Source: Sulfurovaceae bacterium (GTDB taxonomy: Bacteria; Campylobacterota; Campylobacteria; Campylobacterales; Sulfurovaceae). From it: a DNA stretch of 35,315 nucleotides. A program made the translations under genes and the position numbers. The DNA lies in NCBI GenBank assembly GCA_028715055.1, contig JAQTLE010000007.1:1-35315 (forward strand). The letters are read 5' to 3'. This document shows, piece after piece, positions 1,879 to 35,315 of this stretch (positions are counted from its first letter, which is position 1; each line of letters opens with the position of its first letter). Under the pieces are notes generated by a model. It did no database searches, was not told the DNA's origin, and was given only the letters and a program-made list of their open reading frames with translations.

Positions 1879-1991
1879 TGTTTTCCTTTGGTGAGCAAGA
1901 GCAGGCTTTTTGTTGCTATAAAAACTATTGGCTTCACAATAATGTAGCTTATTATAAAACCTATTATAAATCCTATGCCAAAATGTTTCAT
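1875..1991 (-). CDS. 38-aa small membrane peptide at the head of the minus-strand operon
   Basis: This short ORF begins MKHFGIGFIIGFIISYIIV and ends KSLLLLTKGKQ. It has a good Shine-Dalgarno (AAGGAAAACAAA before ATG), almost the same as those of trbJ and the helicase. One long hydrophobic segment covers most of the peptide, so a single-pass inner-membrane peptide is likely. Its TGA overlaps the helicase ATG (ATGA). It is the first gene after the predicted oriT on the strand that would enter first. The frame stays open upstream to 2147, but that extension runs through the predicted oriT and the -35 box and has no ribosome site, so I chose the internal start. The function is unknown. Entry exclusion or membrane anchoring of a partner are guesses from size and position only. 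Confidence 0.55.
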   Translation of the reverse strand: MKHFGIGFIIGFIISYIIVKPIVFIATKSLLLLTKGKQ

Positions 1992-2013
1992 TTTGTTTTC
2001 CTTTTTTCGTTGA

Positions 2014-2077
2014 GCACCTTTGGTGCGAATAAGTTTCAGGATGTTAATGTTAATTACTCGGCTCGCCGTGTAATTAC
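2014..2077 (-). other. oriT: Candidate P-type origin of transfer (oriT) with nic site
   Basis: An inverted repeat at 2051-2076 (12-base arms TAATTAC, one mismatch, CGGC; 2-base centre) is followed on the minus strand, 14 bases on, by CATCCTG (2043-2037). This matches the MOBP/IncP nic consensus YATCCTG, so the predicted cut is between 2037 and 2036. In RP4 the oriT lies just upstream of traK and has an inverted repeat bound by TraJ beside the nic. Here traK, a MobC/TraJ-like gene and a MOBP relaxase are all present, and the site lies just upstream of traK. A second small hairpin (GCACC, TTT, GGTGC at 2014-2026) flanks it. The assignment is by motif and position only. Confidence 0.6.
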
Positions 2078-2118
2078 ATTCACCCTTCCTGCCTTTACGT
2101 TCTGTAGTAATATTTAGT

Positions 2119-2147
2119 ATTATATGAGATTTTTTAGGATTTGTCAA
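2119..2147 (-). promoter_or_regulatory. Consensus sigma70 promoter for the minus-strand leading operon
   Basis: On the minus strand TTGACA (2147-2142) is followed by exactly 17 bases and TATAAT (2124-2119), a perfect match to the housekeeping consensus. Transcription would start near 2112, run through the oriT candidate, and enter the 38-aa ORF and the helicase. Confidence 0.8.
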
Positions 2148-2203
2148 GAAATTTCTATTAAATATATGAAATTTCTATTGACATATTAGAATTTTTCTAT
2201 TAT
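2148..2203 (+). repeat. Direct repeats between and overlapping the divergent -35 boxes
   Basis: GAAATTTCTATT occurs at 2148-2159 and 2168-2179, exactly 20 bp apart. A relaxed third copy (AGAATTTTTCTATT) begins at 2188. The GAAATTTC core is itself palindromic. The copies fill the space between the two -35 boxes and touch both. The arrangement suggests operators for a relaxosome protein such as TraK or MobC/TraJ, which would control both promoters. The binding protein is inferred. Confidence 0.5.
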
Positions 2204-2206
2204 AAT
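2178..2206 (+). promoter_or_regulatory. Consensus sigma70 promoter for traKLM
   Basis: TTGACA (2178-2183), a 17-base spacer and TATAAT (2201-2206) form a second perfect consensus promoter. It is divergent from the one at 2119-2147, with 30 bp between the two -35 boxes. It fixes the traK start downstream at 2245, because the TTG at 2206 overlaps the -10 box. Confidence 0.8.
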
Positions 2207-2244
2207 TGCAAAAGTTACTAAAAAATCGCAGGAGTTCGCAAAAA

Positions 2245-6140: not shown

Positions 6141-6360
6141 TGTAAATGATCTTCTAACTAAAGATAAAAAAACGATCGAGCAGGGCGGCCATGTGCAAAA
6201 CAAAGGCGGTCGTCCAAAAGTAGAAAAAGTTAAAAATAAAAGAGTAACGGCTTATTTTACCGATGAAGATTTTGCATTGCTAAAACAAAAAGCGAATGGA
6301 TTGTCTTTGGCCGCTTTTATCTCTTCTTTGGTGTTGGAACATATAAAAAATAAAGATTGA
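6130..6360 (+). CDS. Small ribbon-helix-helix protein, ParB/ParG-like partner of ParA
   Basis: A 76-aa protein. The first half is polar and probably disordered (ending GGRPKVEK). The second half, KRVTAYFTDEDFALLKQKA followed by GLSLAAFISSLVLEHI, fits a ribbon-helix-helix DNA-binding fold: a short strand, then two helices. ParG/ParR-like partners of small ParA proteins have this size and layout, bind the centromere, and stimulate the ATPase through their N-terminus. The 11-nt overlap with parA supports coupled synthesis. Binding to the 5406-5564 repeats is inferred. Confidence 0.75.
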   Translation: MEFNVNDLLTKDKKTIEQGGHVQNKGGRPKVEKVKNKRVTAYFTDEDFALLKQKANGLSLAAFISSLVLEHIKNKD

Positions 6361-6435
6361 AAAATTTATTAAAAATCCTAAGAGAGTTAAAAAAAGTTAA
6401 ATATCTAGTTAATATACAAGTTATGTGTTTCTGCA

Positions 6436-6457
6436 AAAGCCCTCCTCGTCGGGCTTT
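6436..6457 (+). terminator. GC-rich hairpin after the par operon (copy 1)
   Basis: AAAGCCC (6436-6442) pairs with GGGCTTT (6451-6457) around the 8-base loop TCCTCGTC, followed by the T-rich GTTTGGTTT. It could terminate the par transcript. An identical hairpin is at 6766-6787 within the duplicated origin block, so an origin-specific role is also possible. Confidence 0.6.
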
Positions 6458-6468
6458 GTTTGGTTTAT

Positions 6469-6552
6469 ATGTGGAGTAAACTACGGCTTTATGTGGAGTA
6501 AACTACGGCTTTATGTGGAGTAAACTACGGCTTTATGTGGAGTAAACTACGG
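6469..6552 (+). repeat. Iteron cluster 1 (four copies)
   Basis: Four tandem 22-bp units, each ATGTGGAGTAAACTACGG plus CTTT, with AAATTAAG after the last. These are the likely Rep binding sites. Confidence 0.9.
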
Positions 6553-6765
6553 AAATTAAGATTCTACCATGTGCTCCGAATAGGCTTAATACGCCTTGAT
6601 ACAAGCAATGTATACACTTTGGATACAAAATGTATACAAGATGTGTCCAGCTTGGATACACAGGTTAGGTTAGGTTAGTCTAGGTAAGGATAAACTCTCT
6701 CCTAGATCCTCTCTTAAACAAAATTTAAAACGAGTTAAAAAAAGTACAAGTTATGTGTTTCTGCA

Positions 6766-6787
6766 AAAGCCCTCCTCGTCGGGCTTT
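6766..6787 (+). terminator. Same GC-rich hairpin, copy 2, inside the origin
   Basis: This is an exact second copy of the AAAGCCC/GGGCTTT hairpin with the same loop, 330 bp further on and again 11 bp before an iteron cluster. It could shield the rep promoter region from upstream transcription. Confidence 0.55.
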
Positions 6788-6798
6788 GTTTGGTTTAT

Positions 6799-6880
6799 AT
6801 GTGGAGTAAACTACGGCTTTATGTGGAGTAAACTACGGAAATTAAGAATATGTGGAGTAAACTACGGCTTTATGTGGAGT
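6799..6880 (+). repeat. Iteron cluster 2 (three copies plus one partial), just before rep
   Basis: Two tandem units (6799, 6821), then AAATTAAG, a third unit at 6850 shifted off the 22-bp register, and a truncated unit at 6872-6880 that runs into a T-rich stretch. The closeness to the rep start suggests autoregulation by Rep. Confidence 0.88.
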
Positions 6881-6916
6881 TTATTTTTTTTAACTCAACA
6901 TATAATTAAGGAGTAA

Positions 6917-8116
6917 ATGATGCAAGAAATAATCAAACAAAAAAACTTAATTATTCCAACAGAAAATGAGGTTATTAAAAATAGAGTCTTTGGCACACCA
7001 ACATCTAAAATGACTAGACATCAAAAAGTTGCCTTTACTGTAATGATTAAAATTGCATACGACGCATTGAATATTGATCCAACTACGCGGGTGTTTGAAT
7101 TTCCTACTGATAGATTTTTTGAGTTAATGGGTATATCAACAGTAAGAAAACAATCACACTTATTTACACAAACTTTTATCGATGATGAGGGGTGGCAGCA
7201 AGATAGTGAAGAATATTCTCTTGAACGCACGCTCAAAGCGCTCGTAAATAAATCAATCGATATGCGTTTTAAAGATGTAGATGGGAAAACATATGCAGTT
7301 GAAAGTACGGCTTTGATATCTTACTTTAAACTCACGCGAAAAAAAGTGATCTTTGAATTTAGCGAATGGGTGCGGCATAAAATTTTTATTACTGACAATT
7401 CATATATTATGAAATTGCCAATAATTGCAACCTTTGATGGTGTTCATACTGTTACGCTTTTTGAACAAGTTGAACAAAGAAGAGATTTTTGCAGATGGGA
7501 AGTTTCAGTAAATACACTTAAACAAATTTTTGGATTAATCGACGGTGAATATGCCAAATTTTCTGATTTTAGAAAATGGTGTTTAGATAAACCTAGAGAC
7601 GAAATGAATAAAAAGACCAACTATACTGTTGCCTATGATTATGTAAAAAAAGGTAAAAAAATAGATAAGATTATTTTCACTTGGTATATAAATAAAACTT
7701 CTTTGATGGAATTTCAAAATTTCATAAGAACAAAGTTTATTAATCAAGCATTAGCCGAAATTCCTTCAAAAGACGGTACTTATCATTTGATACAGGTTTC
7801 GGCAGATGGACTCTTATATAATGCTAGAAACCCAAATATAAATTATACAACCACAAAAGCAAAAGCTCTTTGGCGTTGGATGTATGAAAATCAACATCTT
7901 TTGTTAATGAAAGAGCAAGCAGAAAACCTAGAGAATTTTAAAGAGAGTAATTTTACAAAATATTATGGTTGTGATTTAATCCTTGACGGTGAAAAATATA
8001 ACAATATTGTTTTAATACAACCTACTTCTTTAAAAAATAAATTAAAAGTAAAATTTTATGCCGGCGAGCTATTGGTGATGGAAGAAGAAGATTTTATCAA
8101 AAGTGTAATAATATGA
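6917..8116 (+). CDS. rep: Rep_3-family (RepB/RepE-like) replication initiator
   Basis: A 399-aa initiator. The N-terminal half shows the usual pattern of Rep_3 proteins with two winged-helix domains: an early MTRHQKVAFTVMIKIAYDAL helix, an LMGIS region, LERTLKALVNKSI, and then VTLFEQVEQRRDFCRWEVSVNTLKQIFG, which matches the Y/F-x-LYE...L.lFG region of these initiators. The protein would bind the upstream iterons as a monomer and open the origin. The C-terminal roughly 120 residues (after about 275) extend beyond the common Rep_3 core, with no fold I can name. The ribosome site AAGGAG is followed by ATGATG, so the true start may be 6917 or 6920. Confidence 0.85.
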   Translation: MMQEIIKQKNLIIPTENEVIKNRVFGTPTSKMTRHQKVAFTVMIKIAYDALNIDPTTRVFEFPTDRFFELMGISTVRKQSHLFTQTFIDDEGWQQDSEEYSLERTLKALVNKSIDMRFKDVDGKTYAVESTALISYFKLTRKKVIFEFSEWVRHKIFITDNSYIMKLPIIATFDGVHTVTLFEQVEQRRDFCRWEVSVNTLKQIFGLIDGEYAKFSDFRKWCLDKPRDEMNKKTNYTVAYDYVKKGKKIDKIIFTWYINKTSLMEFQNFIRTKFINQALAEIPSKDGTYHLIQVSADGLLYNARNPNINYTTTKAKALWRWMYENQHLLLMKEQAENLENFKESNFTKYYGCDLILDGEKYNNIVLIQPTSLKNKLKVKFYAGELLVMEEEDFIKSVII

Positions 8117-8765: not shown

Positions 8766-9113
8766 CTATGATTGTTTTTGGTGATCTTCTATTTTTTTAA
8801 TTATGTCTTTTTTAATTTCTTCTATAAGCTGCGGAGGTGCATATTTGTTTAATATTTCTGCAATCTCCATCACATCTTTAGAGAAGTTAAAATTTGGTTG
8901 TATGAACATTTCTCCCCTACCATAGGTTAACCATATTGGATTAATATTATAGAGGTCTTGTAAAGCACAGAGCTCTATCCCTCTCAAATTTTTAACTTTC
9001 CCAGTCTCTATATCTGCCACTCTTTGTTTAGGTACATCCATTATTTCTGATAATTGTTTTTGAGTTAAGTTAAGTTCAATCCTTAATTGTTTAAGTCGTT
9101 TAGGCAAGGACAT
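8766..9113 (-). CDS. XRE-family transcriptional repressor
   Basis: A 115-aa protein with an N-terminal helix-turn-helix: LKQLRIELNLTQKQLSEIM, then DVPKQRVADIETGKVKNL (about 5-45). NINPIWLTYGRGEMF, typical of phage-type XRE regulators, follows. The C-terminal helix-rich part is probably for dimerisation. It is transcribed divergently from the trb operon and convergently with eexN, so it most likely controls the 9114-9262 intergenic region and itself. A palindrome at 9140-9152 is a candidate operator. It may serve the role that TrbA/KorB play on IncP plasmids. Confidence 0.8.
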   Translation of the reverse strand: MSLPKRLKQLRIELNLTQKQLSEIMDVPKQRVADIETGKVKNLRGIELCALQDLYNINPIWLTYGRGEMFIQPNFNFSKDVMEIAEILNKYAPPQLIEEIKKDIIKKIEDHQKQS

Positions 9114-9139
9114 TATTTTGGCACCTTTATAAGTTTATA

Positions 9140-9152
9140 TATTGCAACAATA
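9140..9152 (+). promoter_or_regulatory. Candidate operator in the XRE/trb divergent region
   Basis: TATTG, CAA, CAATA is a perfect inverted repeat with a 3-base centre, 27-39 bp upstream of the XRE start codon. It is a plausible binding site for that repressor. Confidence 0.45.
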
Positions 9153-9183
9153 CAGAAAAAAGCAAAAAAAGATAGAAAAACTA

Positions 9184-9212
9184 TTGACTTGTTGGATTTT
9201 TTCTAATATAAT
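9184..9212 (+). promoter_or_regulatory. sigma70 promoter of the trb operon
   Basis: TTGACT (9184-9189), a 17-base spacer and TATAAT (9207-9212) form a near-consensus promoter. It is 50 bp before the first ORF of the trb operon and next to the candidate repressor site. Confidence 0.75.
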
Positions 9213-9262
9213 TTCCATTATATGTATTAATTTTGCATTATATCATAAAAAAAAGGTAAACA

Positions 9263-9478
9263 ATGGGAAAAAGAAAGCCGGGCTCAATTGCAGATCAAAT
9301 TGATCAAAAGCTCAATCTTACTTTGGTCAAATACGCCGAATTAAGAGGTATCCCCGTAAGCAGCTTGAAAAGAAATTATATATCGCTTACGACAGCACAA
9401 ATATTAGCCCAAGATGGCATATATGCGCCATCTACAAAAACAAAACTACAATCACAAAACTCGGATCAAAAATGTTAA
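9263..9478 (+). CDS. 71-aa unknown protein at the head of the trb operon, possibly DNA-binding
   Basis: A small basic protein beginning MGKRKPGSIADQIDQ. The stretch LVKYAELRGIPVSSLKRNYIS has a helix-turn-helix-like shape. The C-terminus is polar. It is the first gene after the trb promoter and has a good ribosome site (AAAAAAGGTAAACA before ATG). Its end overlaps the trbB start by 7 nt, so it is cotranscribed and probably coupled. I do not recognise the family. A small regulator or an accessory relaxosome/T4SS protein is possible. Confidence 0.6.
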   Translation: MGKRKPGSIADQIDQKLNLTLVKYAELRGIPVSSLKRNYISLTTAQILAQDGIYAPSTKTKLQSQNSDQKC

Positions 9479-29382: not shown

Positions 29383-29396
29383 GTTAAAATAACCTA
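29380..29396. terminator. Small hairpin between convergent genes
   Basis: TAGGTTA (29380-29386) and TAACCTA (29390-29396) pair over AAA. It overlaps the stop codons of both convergent genes and could weakly end transcription from either side. Confidence 0.35.
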
Positions 29397-30121
29397 CCTT
29401 GCTCAAATGTATTAATTTGTTCTTGAGTATAAATCAAGCTCTTGTTTTCTACTTCAACATTGTTGATAGTTTCAATTTTTTTATGTAATATGTTATGAGC
29501 ATTACTCATATAGTATGCTGGAGTTCTCCAAATGCTCCATATCTCCAAAGATAAAGAGTTCCCATGTATTACCTCGGCCGGTATGTGTAAAAGTGTTAAT
29601 TGGATATAACACATGTGTACACATAAAATATCAACATCAACGGCTTGTGCCATCATTTCTTGTTGAAAATTTATACCTGCTTTCATCATTGCGTCTGCTC
29701 TCGCGATAATCATTCCTCCGGATCCACAAGCTGGTTCACTCATTATTTCTATTTCACTTGCTTTGTCTCCTAAAATTTGAGCCATAAATTTTGAGATATG
29801 ATAAGGTGTAAAAAATTGTCCTTTGTATTTATTGCCAAGATCTAAAAGATGAAAACACTCACCAAGGAAATCGCCAAATTTATCAGTAAGTGCAAAGATT
29901 ATATAACTTAGTAATTCCGGAAATATTTCGGCTTCTTTTTTTGTGTACTTTTTTATTATTGACAAATACTCTTCTTCCAGCGTCTGTGATTTTTCAAAAG
30001 GTTGTCTCAAACTAATTGCTGCCATATGGCAAAAATCCGAAAAGATCTCCCAATTTTGATATTTATATCCAAGGCTTGTAATAGTTTTTACAAATTGTTT
30101 TTTTGCTTGTTCGTATGTCAT
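29384..30121 (-). CDS. N-6 adenine methylase-like protein lacking a visible catalytic NPPY motif
   Basis: A 245-aa protein related to the methyltransferase part of type I HsdM and other N6 enzymes. It shows YKGQFFTPYHISKFM (99-113) and the SAM-binding motif EPACGSGGM (129-137). A later HGNSLSLEIWSIWRTPAYYM (186-205) stands where the family usually continues to the catalytic (D/N)PP(Y/F). I find no such motif. Similar short forms occur on integrative and conjugative elements. It may methylate plasmid DNA by a variant active site, may only bind SAM, or may be inactive. The ribosome site is AGGAGAAGATT before ATG. It follows the 110-aa gene with a 9-nt gap, at the end of the long minus-strand operon. 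Confidence 0.75.
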   Translation of the reverse strand: MTYEQAKKQFVKTITSLGYKYQNWEIFSDFCHMAAISLRQPFEKSQTLEEEYLSIIKKYTKKEAEIFPELLSYIIFALTDKFGDFLGECFHLLDLGNKYKGQFFTPYHISKFMAQILGDKASEIEIMSEPACGSGGMIIARADAMMKAGINFQQEMMAQAVDVDILCVHMCYIQLTLLHIPAEVIHGNSLSLEIWSIWRTPAYYMSNAHNILHKKIETINNVEVENKSLIYTQEQINTFEQGRLF

Positions 30122-30651: not shown

Positions 30652-32550
30652 CTATAAATTTTTACCTTTTTTAACAACTATTTCATCAGTAACATTCTTC
30701 TCATTTTCTTTTAGTACATCCAACGCTTTTTGCATGCCTTTGTCCTTGAAATTAATATTAATATTGTGTTTCTGCACCAGGGATATAACTTTTGTTTTAA
30801 AGGCATTATCACCGGTTATATCAAGAGTGCTGCCATACTTGAGCTTTGCCATTTCCAAAGCTCTAAGCAGTGCTTCATCGCTTGCGTTGGATACCTTGAG
30901 GTGATTACCTTTATCTATGATCTTTGAATTATCGTTTTGTTTATCTAGCTTATAGACAACAAAGCCGAGTTTTGTGATAACCGGTTTGCTGGAGACAAAA
31001 AGTCTATGATCCATTTTGGATCCAATAGTATTTTCATCTTCTTTTGGCTTAGGCGGTTTTTGTTTTCTAAGTATCTCAAGAGCTTTATCGTCTCCTTTAA
31101 GAGATTCGCTTATGAGATAATCTTTATATGTTATTTGTCTGTTTTCTTTGTTTATGTGAGATTTTGAGATAGTATAATTCTCATATAGCTCTCTAAGCTC
31201 TTTTCTTTGATTTTCAAATATCTTTTGATATGCTTCTTTTTTGATCCTCTTGTTCATTCTTTTATCTGACTTGAGAGTTACAATCCTTTGTCTCCATTTT
31301 GTTTGAATGGCCGATTTACCTTGGTTATACTCGTCTCTTAGGATATCTGATTGTTCTTTTTTTGTTTTGTATTGTAGATCCATTTGAGCTTTGTATTTAT
31401 CCCAGTAATCATTTTTAGGTGTACCAAACTGTATGGTTGGTTTGATATCTATGTCCATGGCCGTAAAGCTGCCATACAGTTTTGCTAAATGGTTCTTTGA
31501 TAGGTTTCGATCGATATCGCTAGCCTTGCAAAAGAGATTTCGGCTCTTATCTTTGATGATAAGGCCATTGCCTCTTTCTTTTAGCTCCAGGTTGTATTTT
31601 GCTAGAGTTGTATGCAATTGCTCAAGTGAAGTGTTTTTATCGCTTAAAACGGCTTTTATGTCCAAAAGCGCGTTATCTCTGATCCATTCTGTGAGATTTG
31701 TTTTGCCGGTGTGAGATTTGATATCTACTGCTCTTGTGCTGCCAGCATTGCTGCTATTGCTTTGTCTCTCCCATCGCAATTGATTATCGGCAAGTCCTTG
31801 CTCTTCTCCTCGTACACTATTGCGTTCATTTGTGGACAATAGCACTTGAGTAAGCTTTTTGTCGTGAACCATATCGATATCGGACAGCTTACGCATGCTA
31901 TCTCGTTTGCCGGCCTTTGTTCTGTTTTTAAGGTCGTTAGTAACGGACTGTGATATTCTAAGTCTTCTATTTTCAGCTCGGCTGTGTTGCTCTCGTATTG
32001 GCTCATAATTATTCTCCTTATTATGTTCTATATTATTGGACTTACGATCTTGCTCGGCCAATTTCCAATTAGGTATATGGTTGTCTTTTTTTAGATTATA
32101 TTTTTCTTCCAATTCAATCATCTTTTTATCAAGCTTCCGTTTTGATTGAAAAGGATCTATTCTTTTATATGTGTCAGGATCTATTCTGCTTACTGCAATA
32201 TGCAAGTGGTAGTTATTTGTATTTGCATGAGTGACGCTAAGTCTTTGATGGTGTTCCATGCCTATAGCTTTAAGCAGCTCTTTTTCGATATCTCTAAGTG
32301 TCTCTTTTGCCGGCTTTTCATCTTCCTGGAACGAAACAATAAGATGAAGTGTTTTATCGCTTTTGGAGTAGTTTAAAGATTGTATTTGTTCGATAAACTC
32401 GATATTGGTTTCAATATCATCAAATTCACAATTAGAAAACTCGATATCTTCTACTTTGTCTTTATGAATACCAAGTTTATCCAACAAATAATTGGAAAGT
32501 CCGCCGAAACTTCCAGTTGCTTTTTTAGCTGCTACAATTTTAACTATCAA
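30652..32550 (-). CDS. MOBP-type relaxase (TraI/VirD2-like) with C-terminal LPD7-like domain
   Basis: A 632-aa relaxase. The N-terminal domain carries the catalytic Tyr21 (GGLSNYLLD), a central acidic/His stretch, and the metal-binding motif III HANTNNYHLHIAV (His108, His115, His117). This is the MOBP pattern HxDTxxxHxH with Ala-Asn in place of the usual residues between. The long charged middle is helical. The end (ALLRALEMAKLKYGSTLDI ... DKGMQKALDVL) resembles the LPD7 domain seen in relaxases and primases. It would nick the predicted oriT and lead the DNA through TraG and Trb. The start is probably TTG 32550. No ATG exists upstream of Tyr21 and the ribosome site is weak, so low translation is expected. 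Confidence 0.88.
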   Translation of the reverse strand: MIVKIVAAKKATGSFGGLSNYLLDKLGIHKDKVEDIEFSNCEFDDIETNIEFIEQIQSLNYSKSDKTLHLIVSFQEDEKPAKETLRDIEKELLKAIGMEHHQRLSVTHANTNNYHLHIAVSRIDPDTYKRIDPFQSKRKLDKKMIELEEKYNLKKDNHIPNWKLAEQDRKSNNIEHNKENNYEPIREQHSRAENRRLRISQSVTNDLKNRTKAGKRDSMRKLSDIDMVHDKKLTQVLLSTNERNSVRGEEQGLADNQLRWERQSNSSNAGSTRAVDIKSHTGKTNLTEWIRDNALLDIKAVLSDKNTSLEQLHTTLAKYNLELKERGNGLIIKDKSRNLFCKASDIDRNLSKNHLAKLYGSFTAMDIDIKPTIQFGTPKNDYWDKYKAQMDLQYKTKKEQSDILRDEYNQGKSAIQTKWRQRIVTLKSDKRMNKRIKKEAYQKIFENQRKELRELYENYTISKSHINKENRQITYKDYLISESLKGDDKALEILRKQKPPKPKEDENTIGSKMDHRLFVSSKPVITKLGFVVYKLDKQNDNSKIIDKGNHLKVSNASDEALLRALEMAKLKYGSTLDITGDNAFKTKVISLVQKHNININFKDKGMQKALDVLKENEKNVTDEIVVKKGKNL

Positions 32551-32612
32551 TTACCACTTCTTTCGTGTTTGTAATTTATATAAAATGTCAAGGATTTTTA
32601 GCAGAAATTTTT

Positions 32613-32900
32613 TCATTTCATTTCTTTGTATTTTCTAAACTCAAGAAATTCTTTGAAGAGATTATATTCTTTGCTCTTCTCTTGAGAGCTATGCAAATAT
32701 TCTATATAATCATCTAGTTTAGAAATTTTACCAGTAACTAAAAACTCTTGCAAATCTTCATTGGTAAAATATTTTTCAATTAAAGTAATAATAGGTCTAT
32801 TTTCTTTTTTCCAATTATTCCAACTTTGTCGTGAGAATTTGAATATTTCCATAACTATTTTATAATCTAGAACATTTTTTAATCTCAAAAATTTATGCAT
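32613..32900 (-). CDS. Fourth tandem paralog: small HTH-like protein with a trbE-derived patch
   Basis: A 95-aa protein. It shares with the three genes upstream a short helix-turn-helix-like start (FSRQSWNNWKKENRP), then LIEKYFTNEDLQEFLVTGKI and SKL. The following region is different in each paralog. Here it includes DYIEYLHSSQEKSKE, whose DNA (32679-32709) is an exact 31-nt match to trbE 11888-11918 in reverse orientation. It overlaps the previous gene by 1 nt (TAATG). The function is unknown; DNA binding is suggested by the N-terminus. It is the last of the small genes before the relaxase. Confidence 0.65.
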   Translation of the reverse strand: MHKFLRLKNVLDYKIVMEIFKFSRQSWNNWKKENRPIITLIEKYFTNEDLQEFLVTGKISKLDDYIEYLHSSQEKSKEYNLFKEFLEFRKYKEMK

Positions 32901-33181
32901 TATTTGTCCTCCAATAATGATTTTATTTCTGTTACTTTATGTAGTAAGTCCTTGTTTTTGATAAGAGTTTTAAGTTCCTCGATATCAATATCTTTTATAA
33001 GTTCTAATTTTTCAATTTTCCCACTACTTAGATATTCATCTAATTCTTGTTCAGAAAAAGCATACTCAAGCAAAGAGAATATTTTTGGAGCCTCTTTTTT
33101 ATCTTTTTGCTTTGGTGATTTTTTCCATCTATAATAAGAAACGTCAGATATTTGCATAAGTTCTGTAATTTGTTTTTTCAT
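32900..33181 (-). CDS. Third tandem paralog: small HTH-like protein
   Basis: A 93-aa protein with the family start MKKQITELMQISDVSYYRWK, a longer basic insert (KSPKQKDKKEAPK), and then FSLLEYAFSEQELDEYLSSG, KIEKLE and a helical C-terminus (IDIEELKTLIKNKDLL). The same blocks occur in the genes at 33178, 33444 and 32613. The ATG overlaps the stop of the gene before it (ATGA). It is probably a DNA-binding or protein-binding adaptor. The family is not recognised. Confidence 0.65.
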   Translation of the reverse strand: MKKQITELMQISDVSYYRWKKSPKQKDKKEAPKIFSLLEYAFSEQELDEYLSSGKIEKLELIKDIDIEELKTLIKNKDLLHKVTEIKSLLEDK

Positions 33182-33447
33182 TGGGGTGATCCTTGCATGA
33201 GTTGTTTGATCTCTTGGAATTTCATAATGATCTCTTTATTGTCAAGGATAAATTTAACGTCCTCGATGGATAATCCCTCGAGAGCTTCCAATTTCGTAAT
33301 GCTCCCGGTGTCAATAAATTCCTCAAGGTCTTTTTGTGTAAAATATTTTTCGAGGAGTTTAATAATTAGTCTGTTTTGTTTCTTCCACTTATAGAACCCG
33401 CTCACCGAACAATCGAGAATTTTTGAGAAAATATCTTCTTTTTTCAT
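33178..33447 (-). CDS. Second tandem paralog: small HTH-like protein
   Basis: An 89-aa protein with the shared blocks CSVSGFYKWKKQNR, LLEKYFTQKDLEEFIDTGSI and TKLEALEG, and a helical C-terminus (IEDVKFILDNKEIIMKFQEI). The stop overlaps the next start, and its own start overlaps the stop of the first paralog (ATGA both times). The S-x-x-x-x-Y-x-W-K-K core is like the recognition helix of small XRE-type domains. Confidence 0.65.
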   Translation of the reverse strand: MKKEDIFSKILDCSVSGFYKWKKQNRLIIKLLEKYFTQKDLEEFIDTGSITKLEALEGLSIEDVKFILDNKEIIMKFQEIKQLMQGSPQ

Positions 33448-33713
33448 TTGGTGATCTCCCCGGACGTTTTTAATGCCTCTAAAAGCTCGGAGAGCATTTT
33501 TGAGTTGTTTTGTACCTCTGATAAAATGAGGTCTTGAGTACCTTGCTTGATCCCCTCGTATTTTGAAATTTTCCCGGTACTCAAAAACTCCTCAAGGTCT
33601 TTTTTGGTAAAGTATTTTTCAATTAACATTATTAATTTAATATGACTTTTCTTTCTCCAAACATAATAAGATTTATCTGAAATATTACACAACCTACTCA
33701 TAATTTCTCTCAT
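33444..33713 (-). CDS. First tandem paralog: small HTH-like protein
   Basis: An 89-aa protein with ISDKSYYVWRKKSH, LIEKYFTKKDLEEFLSTGKI and SKYEGIKQ, and a helical C-terminus (LILSEVQNNSKMLSELLEAL). The first three blocks recur in the three genes that follow, while the C-termini differ in sequence and length. The start overlaps the MobC-like gene stop by 4 nt. Placement right after mobC and before the relaxase suggests a role in the relaxosome or in regulation of the transfer operon. Confidence 0.65.
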   Translation of the reverse strand: MREIMSRLCNISDKSYYVWRKKSHIKLIMLIEKYFTKKDLEEFLSTGKISKYEGIKQGTQDLILSEVQNNSKMLSELLEALKTSGEITK

Positions 33714-34054
33714 AATAATCTCCTTGCTATTTCTAAAAGCTCTTGTTTATTTTGTTCTATCTCTCTAACCAGGAGTTCAACTTTGAATCTGCTTTTATCT
33801 CCAAGCCGTGGATCCCATTCCTCTTTTGTATTTGAGAGCCATAATTTAAACAATCCTCCAAGTCGGCCAAGATCTCCGATTGCTTTATTTAGTTGTGTTA
33901 TAGCCATAATATCTGTTTTGCTTTCAATTGTATATCCAAGTCCTAAATTTCTTAGATAAGCAGAGGCCGGTAAGTTTGCCATTTTACCCTTCTTCTCTAT
34001 CTGTTCTTTTTCTTCTTTCGTAAGTCTTATTTGCAAGGTTTTATTTTTAATCAT
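33710..34054 (-). CDS. MobC/TraJ-like relaxosome accessory protein
   Basis: A 114-aa protein with an N-terminal ribbon-helix-helix (LQIRLTKEEKEQIEKKGKMA, then LPASAYLRNLGLGY) and a helical C-terminal part with LNKAIGDLGRLGGLFKLWL, the typical MobC/TraJ core. IncP TraJ binds the inverted repeat next to nic and helps load the relaxase. The inverted repeat at 2051-2076 is its likely site. The start and stop both overlap neighbours (ATGA), placing it in the zeta-paralogs-relaxase operon. Confidence 0.85.
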   Translation of the reverse strand: MIKNKTLQIRLTKEEKEQIEKKGKMANLPASAYLRNLGLGYTIESKTDIMAITQLNKAIGDLGRLGGLFKLWLSNTKEEWDPRLGDKSRFKVELLVREIEQNKQELLEIARRLL

Positions 34055-34815
34055 CTGCTAATACCATCCTTCTTGATCTCTTGCTTTTGTTCTTTTTTGG
34101 GTTCTAGTTCTCTTTCTATAATGTTCCTTGAAAATTTACCATTGGTGTTGCTGTCGTAAGCGATATTTCTATTATAGTTTTGATCCCTGCTCCATACCAT
34201 AAATCTATCATGGAGATTTAGATTGTAAAGATCTTCTGCGTTTTTTGGTAAATCTTTAATAAGCTTGTCGTAATAATCTTTGTTTACTGCTCTAGGTATT
34301 TCTCCAAAAATCATATCTCTTTCATACCTTTGTACTGTACTTTCCCAGCTTAAATTTTGGTCACAAGTAACAATCATTAGAGTAATATCATAGCCTTGAG
34401 ATTTTAATAGCTGCATCGTTCCCATAGGAACCTTTAAATCCCTTAGTGTGCCTTCAACTTGTATGTTAAATTTTTGTTCGATAGCCTTTTCAATAATTTT
34501 TTCGACTAACTTACCTGACCATTTGCCGGTCTTTAAACTCCAGTCATCGCCGTAATGTTCAACGATTTGTTTAAATTGAGGATGATCTTTTCTGTATTCA
34601 TCACCGGAGATTATTACGCAATTTCCATTTAATAGTAAATTTTCCATATCCATCATTATGCTTGACTTGCCGGCCCCAGGTTGACCGCCAAACACAATTG
34701 CTTTTGGTTCGTCTTGTGGTATTGGTTTTTGATTATATATTATCTCTTGAAATATTTTTTCCAAAGCTTCATCAAAAGCTTCGTCCGAAAATTTTAAATA
34801 TCGCTCTTTATTCAC
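34051..34815 (-). CDS. Zeta-toxin family kinase
   Basis: A 254-aa protein. Walker A is FGGQPGAGKSS (42-52). The conserved substrate/catalytic stretch is ISGDEYRKDHPQF (69-81), and EGTLRD and a later arginine-rich VQRYERDMI region follow. These match zeta/PezT-type toxins, which phosphorylate UDP-N-acetylglucosamine and block wall synthesis. The Lys/Glu-rich C-terminal tail (EPKKEQKQEIKKDG) is extra. It is coupled by ATGA overlaps to the small gene upstream (likely antitoxin) and mobC downstream. On a plasmid it should enforce maintenance. Its place close behind the predicted oriT means it would enter the recipient early, together with its antitoxin. Confidence 0.85.
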   Translation of the reverse strand: MNKERYLKFSDEAFDEALEKIFQEIIYNQKPIPQDEPKAIVFGGQPGAGKSSIMMDMENLLLNGNCVIISGDEYRKDHPQFKQIVEHYGDDWSLKTGKWSGKLVEKIIEKAIEQKFNIQVEGTLRDLKVPMGTMQLLKSQGYDITLMIVTCDQNLSWESTVQRYERDMIFGEIPRAVNKDYYDKLIKDLPKNAEDLYNLNLHDRFMVWSRDQNYNRNIAYDSNTNGKFSRNIIERELEPKKEQKQEIKKDGISR

Positions 34816-35138
34816 AATATTCCTTTTTCAATCATTTCATTTTGTCGCTCAATTATTCCGGCCCATTTTTTATTTAATGCTCTATCTTTATATTTATTAT
34901 GAATTGCTTGCAACTCTGTATAATAAAAAGGATAATCTATCTCTTTTGGTTTTTTTGTGTTCACTGTAGTGTATGCAATTTCATGTACTCGTGCTGCATC
35001 GTTTTGGGCCTCTAAATCATCAGGTTCTACAACTTTGTTCATGGCAGCGTTTACGGTTGCTATTAATTCTCTCAATCCCTCATACATTATTTCCGGGGGG
35101 AATTTTCCGCATATTTTTTTGTTTTCTTCGTAGGTCAT
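34812..35138 (-). CDS. Putative antitoxin of the zeta-type toxin
   Basis: A 108-aa helical, acidic-to-neutral protein (MTYEENKKICGKFPPEIMYE ... NEMIEKGIL). The middle LRELIATVNAAMNKVVEPDD and AARVHEIAYTTVN suggest a three-helix bundle like epsilon antitoxins, but I see no clear sequence family. Position immediately before the zeta gene with a 4-nt overlap is the main evidence. The start at 35138 overlaps the helicase stop and has AAAAGGAAAACAAA upstream. An in-frame ATG at 35165 lies inside the helicase and lacks a ribosome site, so it is rejected. Confidence 0.65.
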   Translation of the reverse strand: MTYEENKKICGKFPPEIMYEGLRELIATVNAAMNKVVEPDDLEAQNDAARVHEIAYTTVNTKKPKEIDYPFYYTELQAIHNKYKDRALNKKWAGIIERQNEMIEKGIL

Positions 35139-35315
35139 TTTGTTTTCCTTTTGTTGATCTTCCAACTCTCATCAATACTCTCAAGTAGCGCTATCCTATC
35201 GTCCGAGAGTTGCCCTTTTTTATAATTCTTTTTTTGCACTGAAAGCCAAATACCTATTTTCACATCTTTATATATTTTTTTAGAAGCCGGAAACTCTCCA
35301 AACTCCTCATAATAC
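35135..35315 (-). CDS. C-terminal end of the same HA-repeat helicase, continuing across the window junction
   Basis: This frame encodes the last HA repeat (YYEEFGEFPASKKIY, then IGIWLSVQ and QLSDDRIALLESIDESW) and ends in KINKRKTK with TGA at 35137-35135. It is clearly the third copy of the repeat whose other copies lie at about 59-450. The TGA overlaps the ATG at 35138 of the next gene (ATGA), so the two are probably translationally coupled. Frame continuity with the part at 1-1878 needs two extra bases (one CT unit) at the junction. Internal copies have three CT units at this point and the joined ends have two. It is given as a separate entry because the window is linear. Confidence 0.85.
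   Translation of the reverse strand, partial: YYEEFGEFPASKKIYKDVKIGIWLSVQKKNYKKGQLSDDRIALLESIDESWKINKRKTK

Follow-up and report, generated by a model that had tools for sequence, protein, structure and literature searches.

Four overlapping genes in a mobilisation operon

The stretch of DNA analysed here (the window) is a whole contig of 35,315 bases from a genome of 1.76 Mb. Between its mobC and relaxase genes lie four small minus-strand genes, A to D, whose reading frames overlap one another by 4, 4 and 1 nt (Table 1). The preliminary description had put these four frames in one operon with mobC and the relaxase gene, and both the frames and their placement are present as it described them. 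This contig represents a conjugative, plasmid-like element: it carries VirB-type genes, ParA-like and Rep-like genes (the names VirB, ParA and Rep were assigned by inspection), an iteron-like repeat, a MOB-P relaxase, and a MobC/NikA-like protein.

The two ends of the contig contain parts of what appears to be a single helicase gene with repeated C-terminal units. Because this gene is split over both ends, the plasmid is probably circular and broken within a repeat; the ends lack an exact terminal repeat, and the helicase frames do not join directly. If the molecule is circular, the operon would run helicase, 117-aa gene, zeta-like toxin, mobC, A, B, C, D, relaxase. Genes resembling the 117-aa gene occur in loci L013 (7051-7377) and L104 (2313-2639). 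Elsewhere on the contig, nine copies of the 11-mer TATATGTGGAG (with at most one mismatch) stand upstream of a Rep-like ORF and likely mark an iteron-type origin. A gene for an XRE-type repressor is divergent from the VirB11-like (T4SS) operon, and the DNA between them contains a repeated 11-mer (3 copies; 0/100 shuffles). There is also an N6-methylase-like gene of just 245 aa, possibly truncated, whose N6_Mtase match covers profile positions 22-134 of 311.

Table 1 Features of the window.
Feature	Positions	Strand	Remarks
Helicase gene, two parts	1-1878 and 35135-35314		at the two contig ends
Region upstream of the operon if circular	1879-2210		repeated 11-mer
11-mer repeats	6360-6917		likely iteron-type origin
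Rep-like ORF	6917-8116
XRE-type repressor gene	8766-9263		divergent from VirB11-like operon
VirB-type genes	from 9472 onward
N6-methylase-like gene	29384-30121
TraI/MobA(P)-family (MOB-P) relaxase	30652-32550	minus	closest relative 65% identical, in an element bearing a D-like regulator
Insertion at mobC-relaxase junction	32551-33709	minus	1159 nt; the genes abut in 17/17 related places
Gene D, 95 aa	32613-32900	minus	head near-matching the L013 regulator; tail resembling that of L122
L013-like segment of D	32709-32890	minus	182 nt
Gene C, 93 aa	32900-33181	minus	head with insertion after the HTH; tail type common to B and Aliarcobacter array proteins
Gene B, 89 aa	33178-33447	minus	head and C-type tail; nearest long head L150, identity 0.57 over the HTH
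Gene A, 89 aa	33444-33713	minus	head and unassigned tail; nearest long head L025, identity 0.52 over 21 HTH positions
mobC / NikA-like relaxosome protein	33710-34054	minus	4 nt overlap with gene A
Zeta-toxin/PezT-like protein	34051-34815	minus	upstream, same packed operon
117-aa gene	34812-35165	minus	ahead of the zeta-like gene; possible antitoxin

A shared head with a variable and a constant half

A to D were originally described as having a conserved head and unrelated tails. The heads are indeed homologous over residues ~1-55, well above the shuffled background: taken through the SKLE-like block, the six head-head pairs give local alignment scores of 83-131 (Z 12.6-20.5), which none of 500 shuffles reached for any pair. 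The head is not uniformly conserved, however. Identity among A to D is 21-42% at positions 1-26, the helix-turn-helix (HTH) half, and 43-68% at positions 27-54, which are fairly constant. As for the tails, five of the pairs are unrelated as claimed (p 0.19-0.96), but the tails of B and C are related to each other (Z 8.5) and group with those of two further arrays, one on an Aliarcobacter plasmid (L018) and one on a MAG contig (L010). The tail of D resembles that of an array protein from L122 (Z 3.1, p 0.006). Third-codon GC is 0.40 in A and 0.43 in B versus 0.20 in C and 0.21 in D. All four are intact overlapping frames that keep the conserved head columns.

The same anatomy emerges from conservation over 97 heads, a variable HTH half followed by a constant half with the block LLEKYFTxxDLEEFL; identity across all pairs is 27% at positions 5-17 and 44% at positions 27-54. 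S14, T/S17 and W21 are conserved; positions 13, 15 and 16, where the second helix begins, vary strongly. The AF2 model of B (pLDDT 92.8, pTM 0.66) is all helical, with seven helices at residues 3-10, 15-23, 27-35, 38-47, 51-55, 61-69 and 71-84. Pfam searches with 47 heads returned weak matches to HTH_17 in 12 and to HTH_Tnp_1_2 in 11; B and C fall below the gathering cut-offs (17.7 bits vs 27 for B with HTH_17, 14.7 vs 27.9 for C with HTH_Tnp_1_2). Fold searches of the PDB and BFVD with B and one long relative gave nothing below E 1. The top Foldseek rows for B are MarR/SlyA proteins at E 1.2 and weaker, and 0 of 17 chains reached Z>=2; for the tail of the long relative, the top VIA row is AcrIE10-DNA (Z 4.5, rmsd 3.4, 79 aligned), a value in the range of a common arrangement. 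Short matches to DNA polymerase beta in a PDB sequence search (best E 0.016-0.024) were read as chance.

The head family in Campylobacterota

All four window genes match the head profile (HTH half followed by LLEKYFTxxDLEEFLxTGKIxKLE) and belong to it. A profile of A to D finds relatives in 49 of 397 genomes of the class, and a 47-row profile finds them in 19 of 175 genomes of the family and 73 of 398 of the order, where the weakest matches have E near 1e-4 to 1e-3; the genome of the window is included in these counts. The head is not limited to arrays: most relatives are single-copy proteins of 160-390 aa that begin with the head and differ in their C-terminal parts. Ten of these long proteins scanned against Pfam gave no match better than E 0.04. 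A pattern scan of genome contigs returned 11 loci, ten labelled as Campylobacterota and one as a Flavobacteria MAG; the latter is probably misbinned, because near-identical genes are found in G610, a genome of the window's order. Phage records and viral contigs yielded no credible relative.

In total, 181 ORFs correspond to 97 distinct head proteins, 81 long and 16 short. Among the short ones are three degenerate or remote proteins (L157-L159) and one, L139, that runs off its contig. In Campylobacterota, weakly matching small HTH proteins of the L158/L159 type align with the head through their HTH LAKLFNVSRNTINNWEKEKP but lack the LLEKYFTxxDLEEFL block. Ten similar head proteins of ~165 aa from Arcobacter-type genomes (L011, L032, L034, L035, L038, L042, L043, L045, L047 and L048) have no AlpA or Rep neighbours; this protein is possibly a domesticated chromosomal regulator. 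The long heads L066 and L068 (356-363 aa) appear to be fusions that unite two tail families, that of L037/L071 and another.

Long relatives face AlpA-like or Rep-like genes

We examined the gene neighbourhoods of 71 long heads, with the ten Arcobacter-type proteins tallied apart and the labels AlpA, Rep and VirB resting on seed proteins picked by inspection. Within 700 bp upstream, 51 of the 71 have a divergently oriented gene, AlpA-like in 34 and Rep-like in 17, and ParA, VirB5/6, MobC, relaxase or integrase genes are often nearby. By analogy, this layout is that of an immunity repressor facing the early genes of an integrative element. It is missing in the other 20 long heads and in all ten Arcobacter-type proteins, and none of the 16 short heads, A to D among them, has it.

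The divergent intergenic regions of the long heads often contain an iterated 11-mer in 2-4 copies, with motifs that differ between heads. The test was confined to regions of 80-260 nt (margins included), which kept 30 of 41 regions; against dinucleotide shuffles, 14 of the 30 are significant at p<=0.05 and 10 at p<=0.01, counts that are inflated by kinship among the regions. By itself, palindrome strength was unconvincing as an operator signal (5/31 regions at p<=0.05).

The HTH and the upstream DNA change together

We compared HTH identity with upstream DNA for the 3,160 possible pairs among 80 long heads, the members of the 81 with at least 200 nt upstream, counting upstream DNA as shared when the score exceeded the 99th percentile of background. 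Windows and thresholds were chosen after a first pass whose 180 nt reached into AlpA coding DNA, the source of the high score that the pair L113/L115 received in that pass. When tails are unlike and HTH identity is at least 0.8, 8 of 12 pairs share upstream DNA; since the pairs are not independent (L072 and L115 represent a single region, and L105 nearly duplicates L106), these amount to about seven separate cases. Still among pairs with unlike tails, sharing is found in 1 of 17 at an HTH identity of 0.7-0.8 and in 6 of 194 at 0.5-0.7. Among pairs with like tails and an HTH identity below 0.5, 1 of 14 shares upstream DNA. It is with the HTH, and not with the tail, that upstream DNA co-varies; the HTH therefore very probably reads the adjacent operator.

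The iterated sites might instead be bound by AlpA or Rep, and one set of loci was examined to tell these readers apart. L113 and L115 are nearly identical in AlpA (70/72), Rep (273/291), the middle of the head protein (29/29) and its tail (109/116), yet their HTHs agree at just 5 of 24 positions and the 138-140 bp between the genes have been replaced. L113 and L107, in contrast, have an HTH (18/22) and the palindrome TGTGTTnTAACACA in common while their AlpA proteins (24/70) and tails (6/41) are unlike. Because AlpA and Rep stay while the site and the HTH change together, the HTH, not AlpA, is likely the reader of the site. Judging from these comparisons, we consider it very likely that the HTH binds the iterated sites. 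For A to D, the DNA-binding-like head of the preliminary description is well supported, by the helix-turn-helix anatomy and by operator co-variation in the relatives.

The array is an insertion and the head of D has a sister copy

Of 36 related loci examined, 27 held both mobC and the relaxase gene, representing 17 distinct places. In all 17, the gap between the two genes is -4 to +5 nt; with 1,159 nt between them in the window, the array is an insertion.

The 182-nt segment of D matches the L013 regulator gene of a sister integrative element at 161 of 182 positions (88%). The match begins 2 nt upstream of the L013 start codon (TTG) and ends near residue 64, such that D residues ~4-64 are the segment in common, with 21 of 22 HTH positions identical. 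The operator/promoter region and the tail of L013 lie outside the match, and D begins at an ATG further upstream. The L013 element also contains the relaxase closest to that of the window, and there mobC and the relaxase gene overlap by 4 nt with nothing between them. The head of D thus appears to have been captured from the L013 regulator, the direction that we presume, or to be shared with it, and it probably reads sites of the L013 type.

Expansion of the array by tandem duplication, put forward in the preliminary description, is not supported. In trees and clade tests of 96 heads over 58 columns, D pairs with L013 (FastTree 0.999, SH-aLRT 97), and a single clade of A to D is marginally rejected (p-AU 0.049). 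Third-codon GC, too, sets A and B apart from C and D. A clade of A, B and C alone is not rejected (p-AU 0.37), so that these three may have arisen by duplication.

Other arrays occupy other places

On the A. butzleri plasmid NZ_CP104380.1 (L018), four head genes are tightly packed into a cluster located after parB, together with two CI-like HTH genes. In the related plasmid NC_025153.1, whose flanks are 90.4% and 90.6% identical, an unrelated stretch of ~316 bp replaces the array. A DNA search of 398 genomes with an Aliarcobacter stretch gave mostly short uninformative matches, plus a stretch with an SprT-like gene. In the parts of PMC3896396 that concern us here, the genes of a large A. butzleri plasmid are tabulated mostly as hypothetical proteins. 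Two further loci lie downstream of relaxase-like and methylase genes: L010, where two heads in tandem are accompanied by a third HTH gene, and L122/L090, with a head after a CI-like HTH gene. From their sequence contexts, the arrays occupy differing places and look exchangeable as cassettes.

A second small HTH family accompanies some of these arrays, in L018 (about 1649-1785 and 2238-2489) and L122 (4241-4585). Its C-terminus is constant (CRxLGIYNEIF; LGIYNEIF is present in the C-termini of both CI-like HTH genes of L018) and its HTH differs; one L018 copy is unannotated.

A possible role in trans

In the reading that we favour, A to D would each combine the operator-reading head of Campylobacterota mobile-element regulators with a short helical tail. 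The N-terminus of the full-length relatives would read repeated sites in the promoter that they share with the AlpA-Rep(-ParA-VirB-MobC-relaxase) genes. The array would be a set of such heads that differ in specificity, inserted between mobC and the relaxase gene and translated via overlapping start and stop codons; the head of D would have come from a sister element's regulator, leaving the operator behind. Each protein would then occupy the operators of another element, keeping its establishment or transfer genes off.

This reading in trans draws on the HTH anatomy, the divergent position of the long relatives and their iterated upstream motifs, the mosaic of heads and tails, the co-variation of HTH and upstream DNA, the capture of D, the insertion, and the exchangeable Aliarcobacter cassette; that binding represses and that the targets are foreign elements, we infer. 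Repression of other elements (cross-immunity) as the array's main role is a tentative proposal, which we put ahead of the alternatives below. A more specific version, possible yet more doubtful, is that the array is a multi-specific immunity cassette of competitors' heads without operators, with which the plasmid would silence the establishment genes of these competitors; heads would turn over by recombination, D would be a traceable acquisition, and the whole would amount to an immunity array built from repressors.

We found no operators for A to D among D-type and L150-type sites in the window: the D-type motif occurs 9 times vs 7.7 expected, and L150-type sites are not above chance. A loose D-type pattern occurs 120 times in the genome itself vs 35 in a reversed control, with no element indicated. 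For A, B and C, relatives point to no target site: their HTHs match those of long heads at identities of at most 0.52-0.57, and upstream similarity is lost already at 0.7-0.8.

The main rival to cross-immunity, which we think unlikely, is that A to D are Cro-like autoregulators that set the level of the helicase-zeta-mobC-relaxase operon by binding its promoter, their differing specificities serving several promoters on the plasmid. Their packing in one operon with mobC and the relaxase gene would suit such a role, and, if the plasmid is circular, a repeated 11-mer (3 copies, p 0.04, one of seven regions tested) stands upstream of this operon. However, related mob operons do without the array in 17 of 17 places, a plasmid ~90.5% identical over the compared flanks has other DNA in place of the Aliarcobacter array, D-type and L150-type sites are at chance level in the window, and the T4SS side has an XRE repressor of its own. 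The chance-level D-type motif, the 17 junctions without an array and the XRE repressor at the T4SS operon also leave little in favour of the earlier suggestion that A to D regulate transfer of their own element. The other role suggested at that time, as anti-defence adaptors, gained no support: PADLOC models made no anti-phage defence assignment among A to D, with matches to B only (best E 0.011).

Alternatively, heads without the long tail might occupy foreign operators without repressing, unlocking resident elements, for example for their transfer machinery. It is the long tail that has been lost, with D keeping just residues ~4-64 of the segment shared with L013; but each of the four proteins has a short tail (two helices in the model of B), and the same tail types turn up in different arrays, arguing for a retained tail function, so that we hold this competitor or anti-repressor role to be improbable. 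Two further explanations seem to us very improbable. The location between mobC and the relaxase gene would fit relaxosome accessory proteins whose heads bind oriT-proximal DNA and whose tails contact MobC or the relaxase, yet the 17 related junctions have no array, and the other arrays follow a methylase gene (L010, L122) or parB (L018). Nor do we expect A to D to be decaying copies of captured regulator genes with no current function: they are truncated relative to the long regulators, and L157 appears degenerate, but four intact overlapping frames, conserved head columns and the presence of arrays on several element backgrounds tell against decay.

Relation to known immunity systems

Lambdoid heteroimmunity involves phage immunity repressors with swapped specificity, and ImmR of ICEBs1 (PMC8960796) is an ICE immunity repressor. 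In the sections of PMC6550527 that deal with Cluster A mycobacteriophages, repressor specificity co-varies with iterated operators (stoperators), and strains with a cloned repressor largely reproduce the immunity of the lysogen. The HTH of the long relatives is like these phage repressors (PMC6550527) in co-varying with upstream DNA, in which iterated sites are often found. In contrast, the elements here are conjugative or integrative, a swap of the DNA-reading half brings the intergenic DNA with it, and several heads stand in tandem without operators in the window. ImmR is likewise the regulator of an ICE, and the long heads are likewise divergent from element genes; the window genes differ in being short, tandem, and within a mob operon. 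Our searches found no homology of the heads to phage immunity repressors or to ImmR, and in the literature, mainly open-access, we found no description of the head family or of such arrays.

In the Campylobacterota family of mobile-element regulators, operator and HTH travel together, such that specificity may be read by sequence comparison. If the proposal for A to D is true, these genes would add a class of element-against-element control, in which plasmids use captured DNA-reading modules for cross-immunity.
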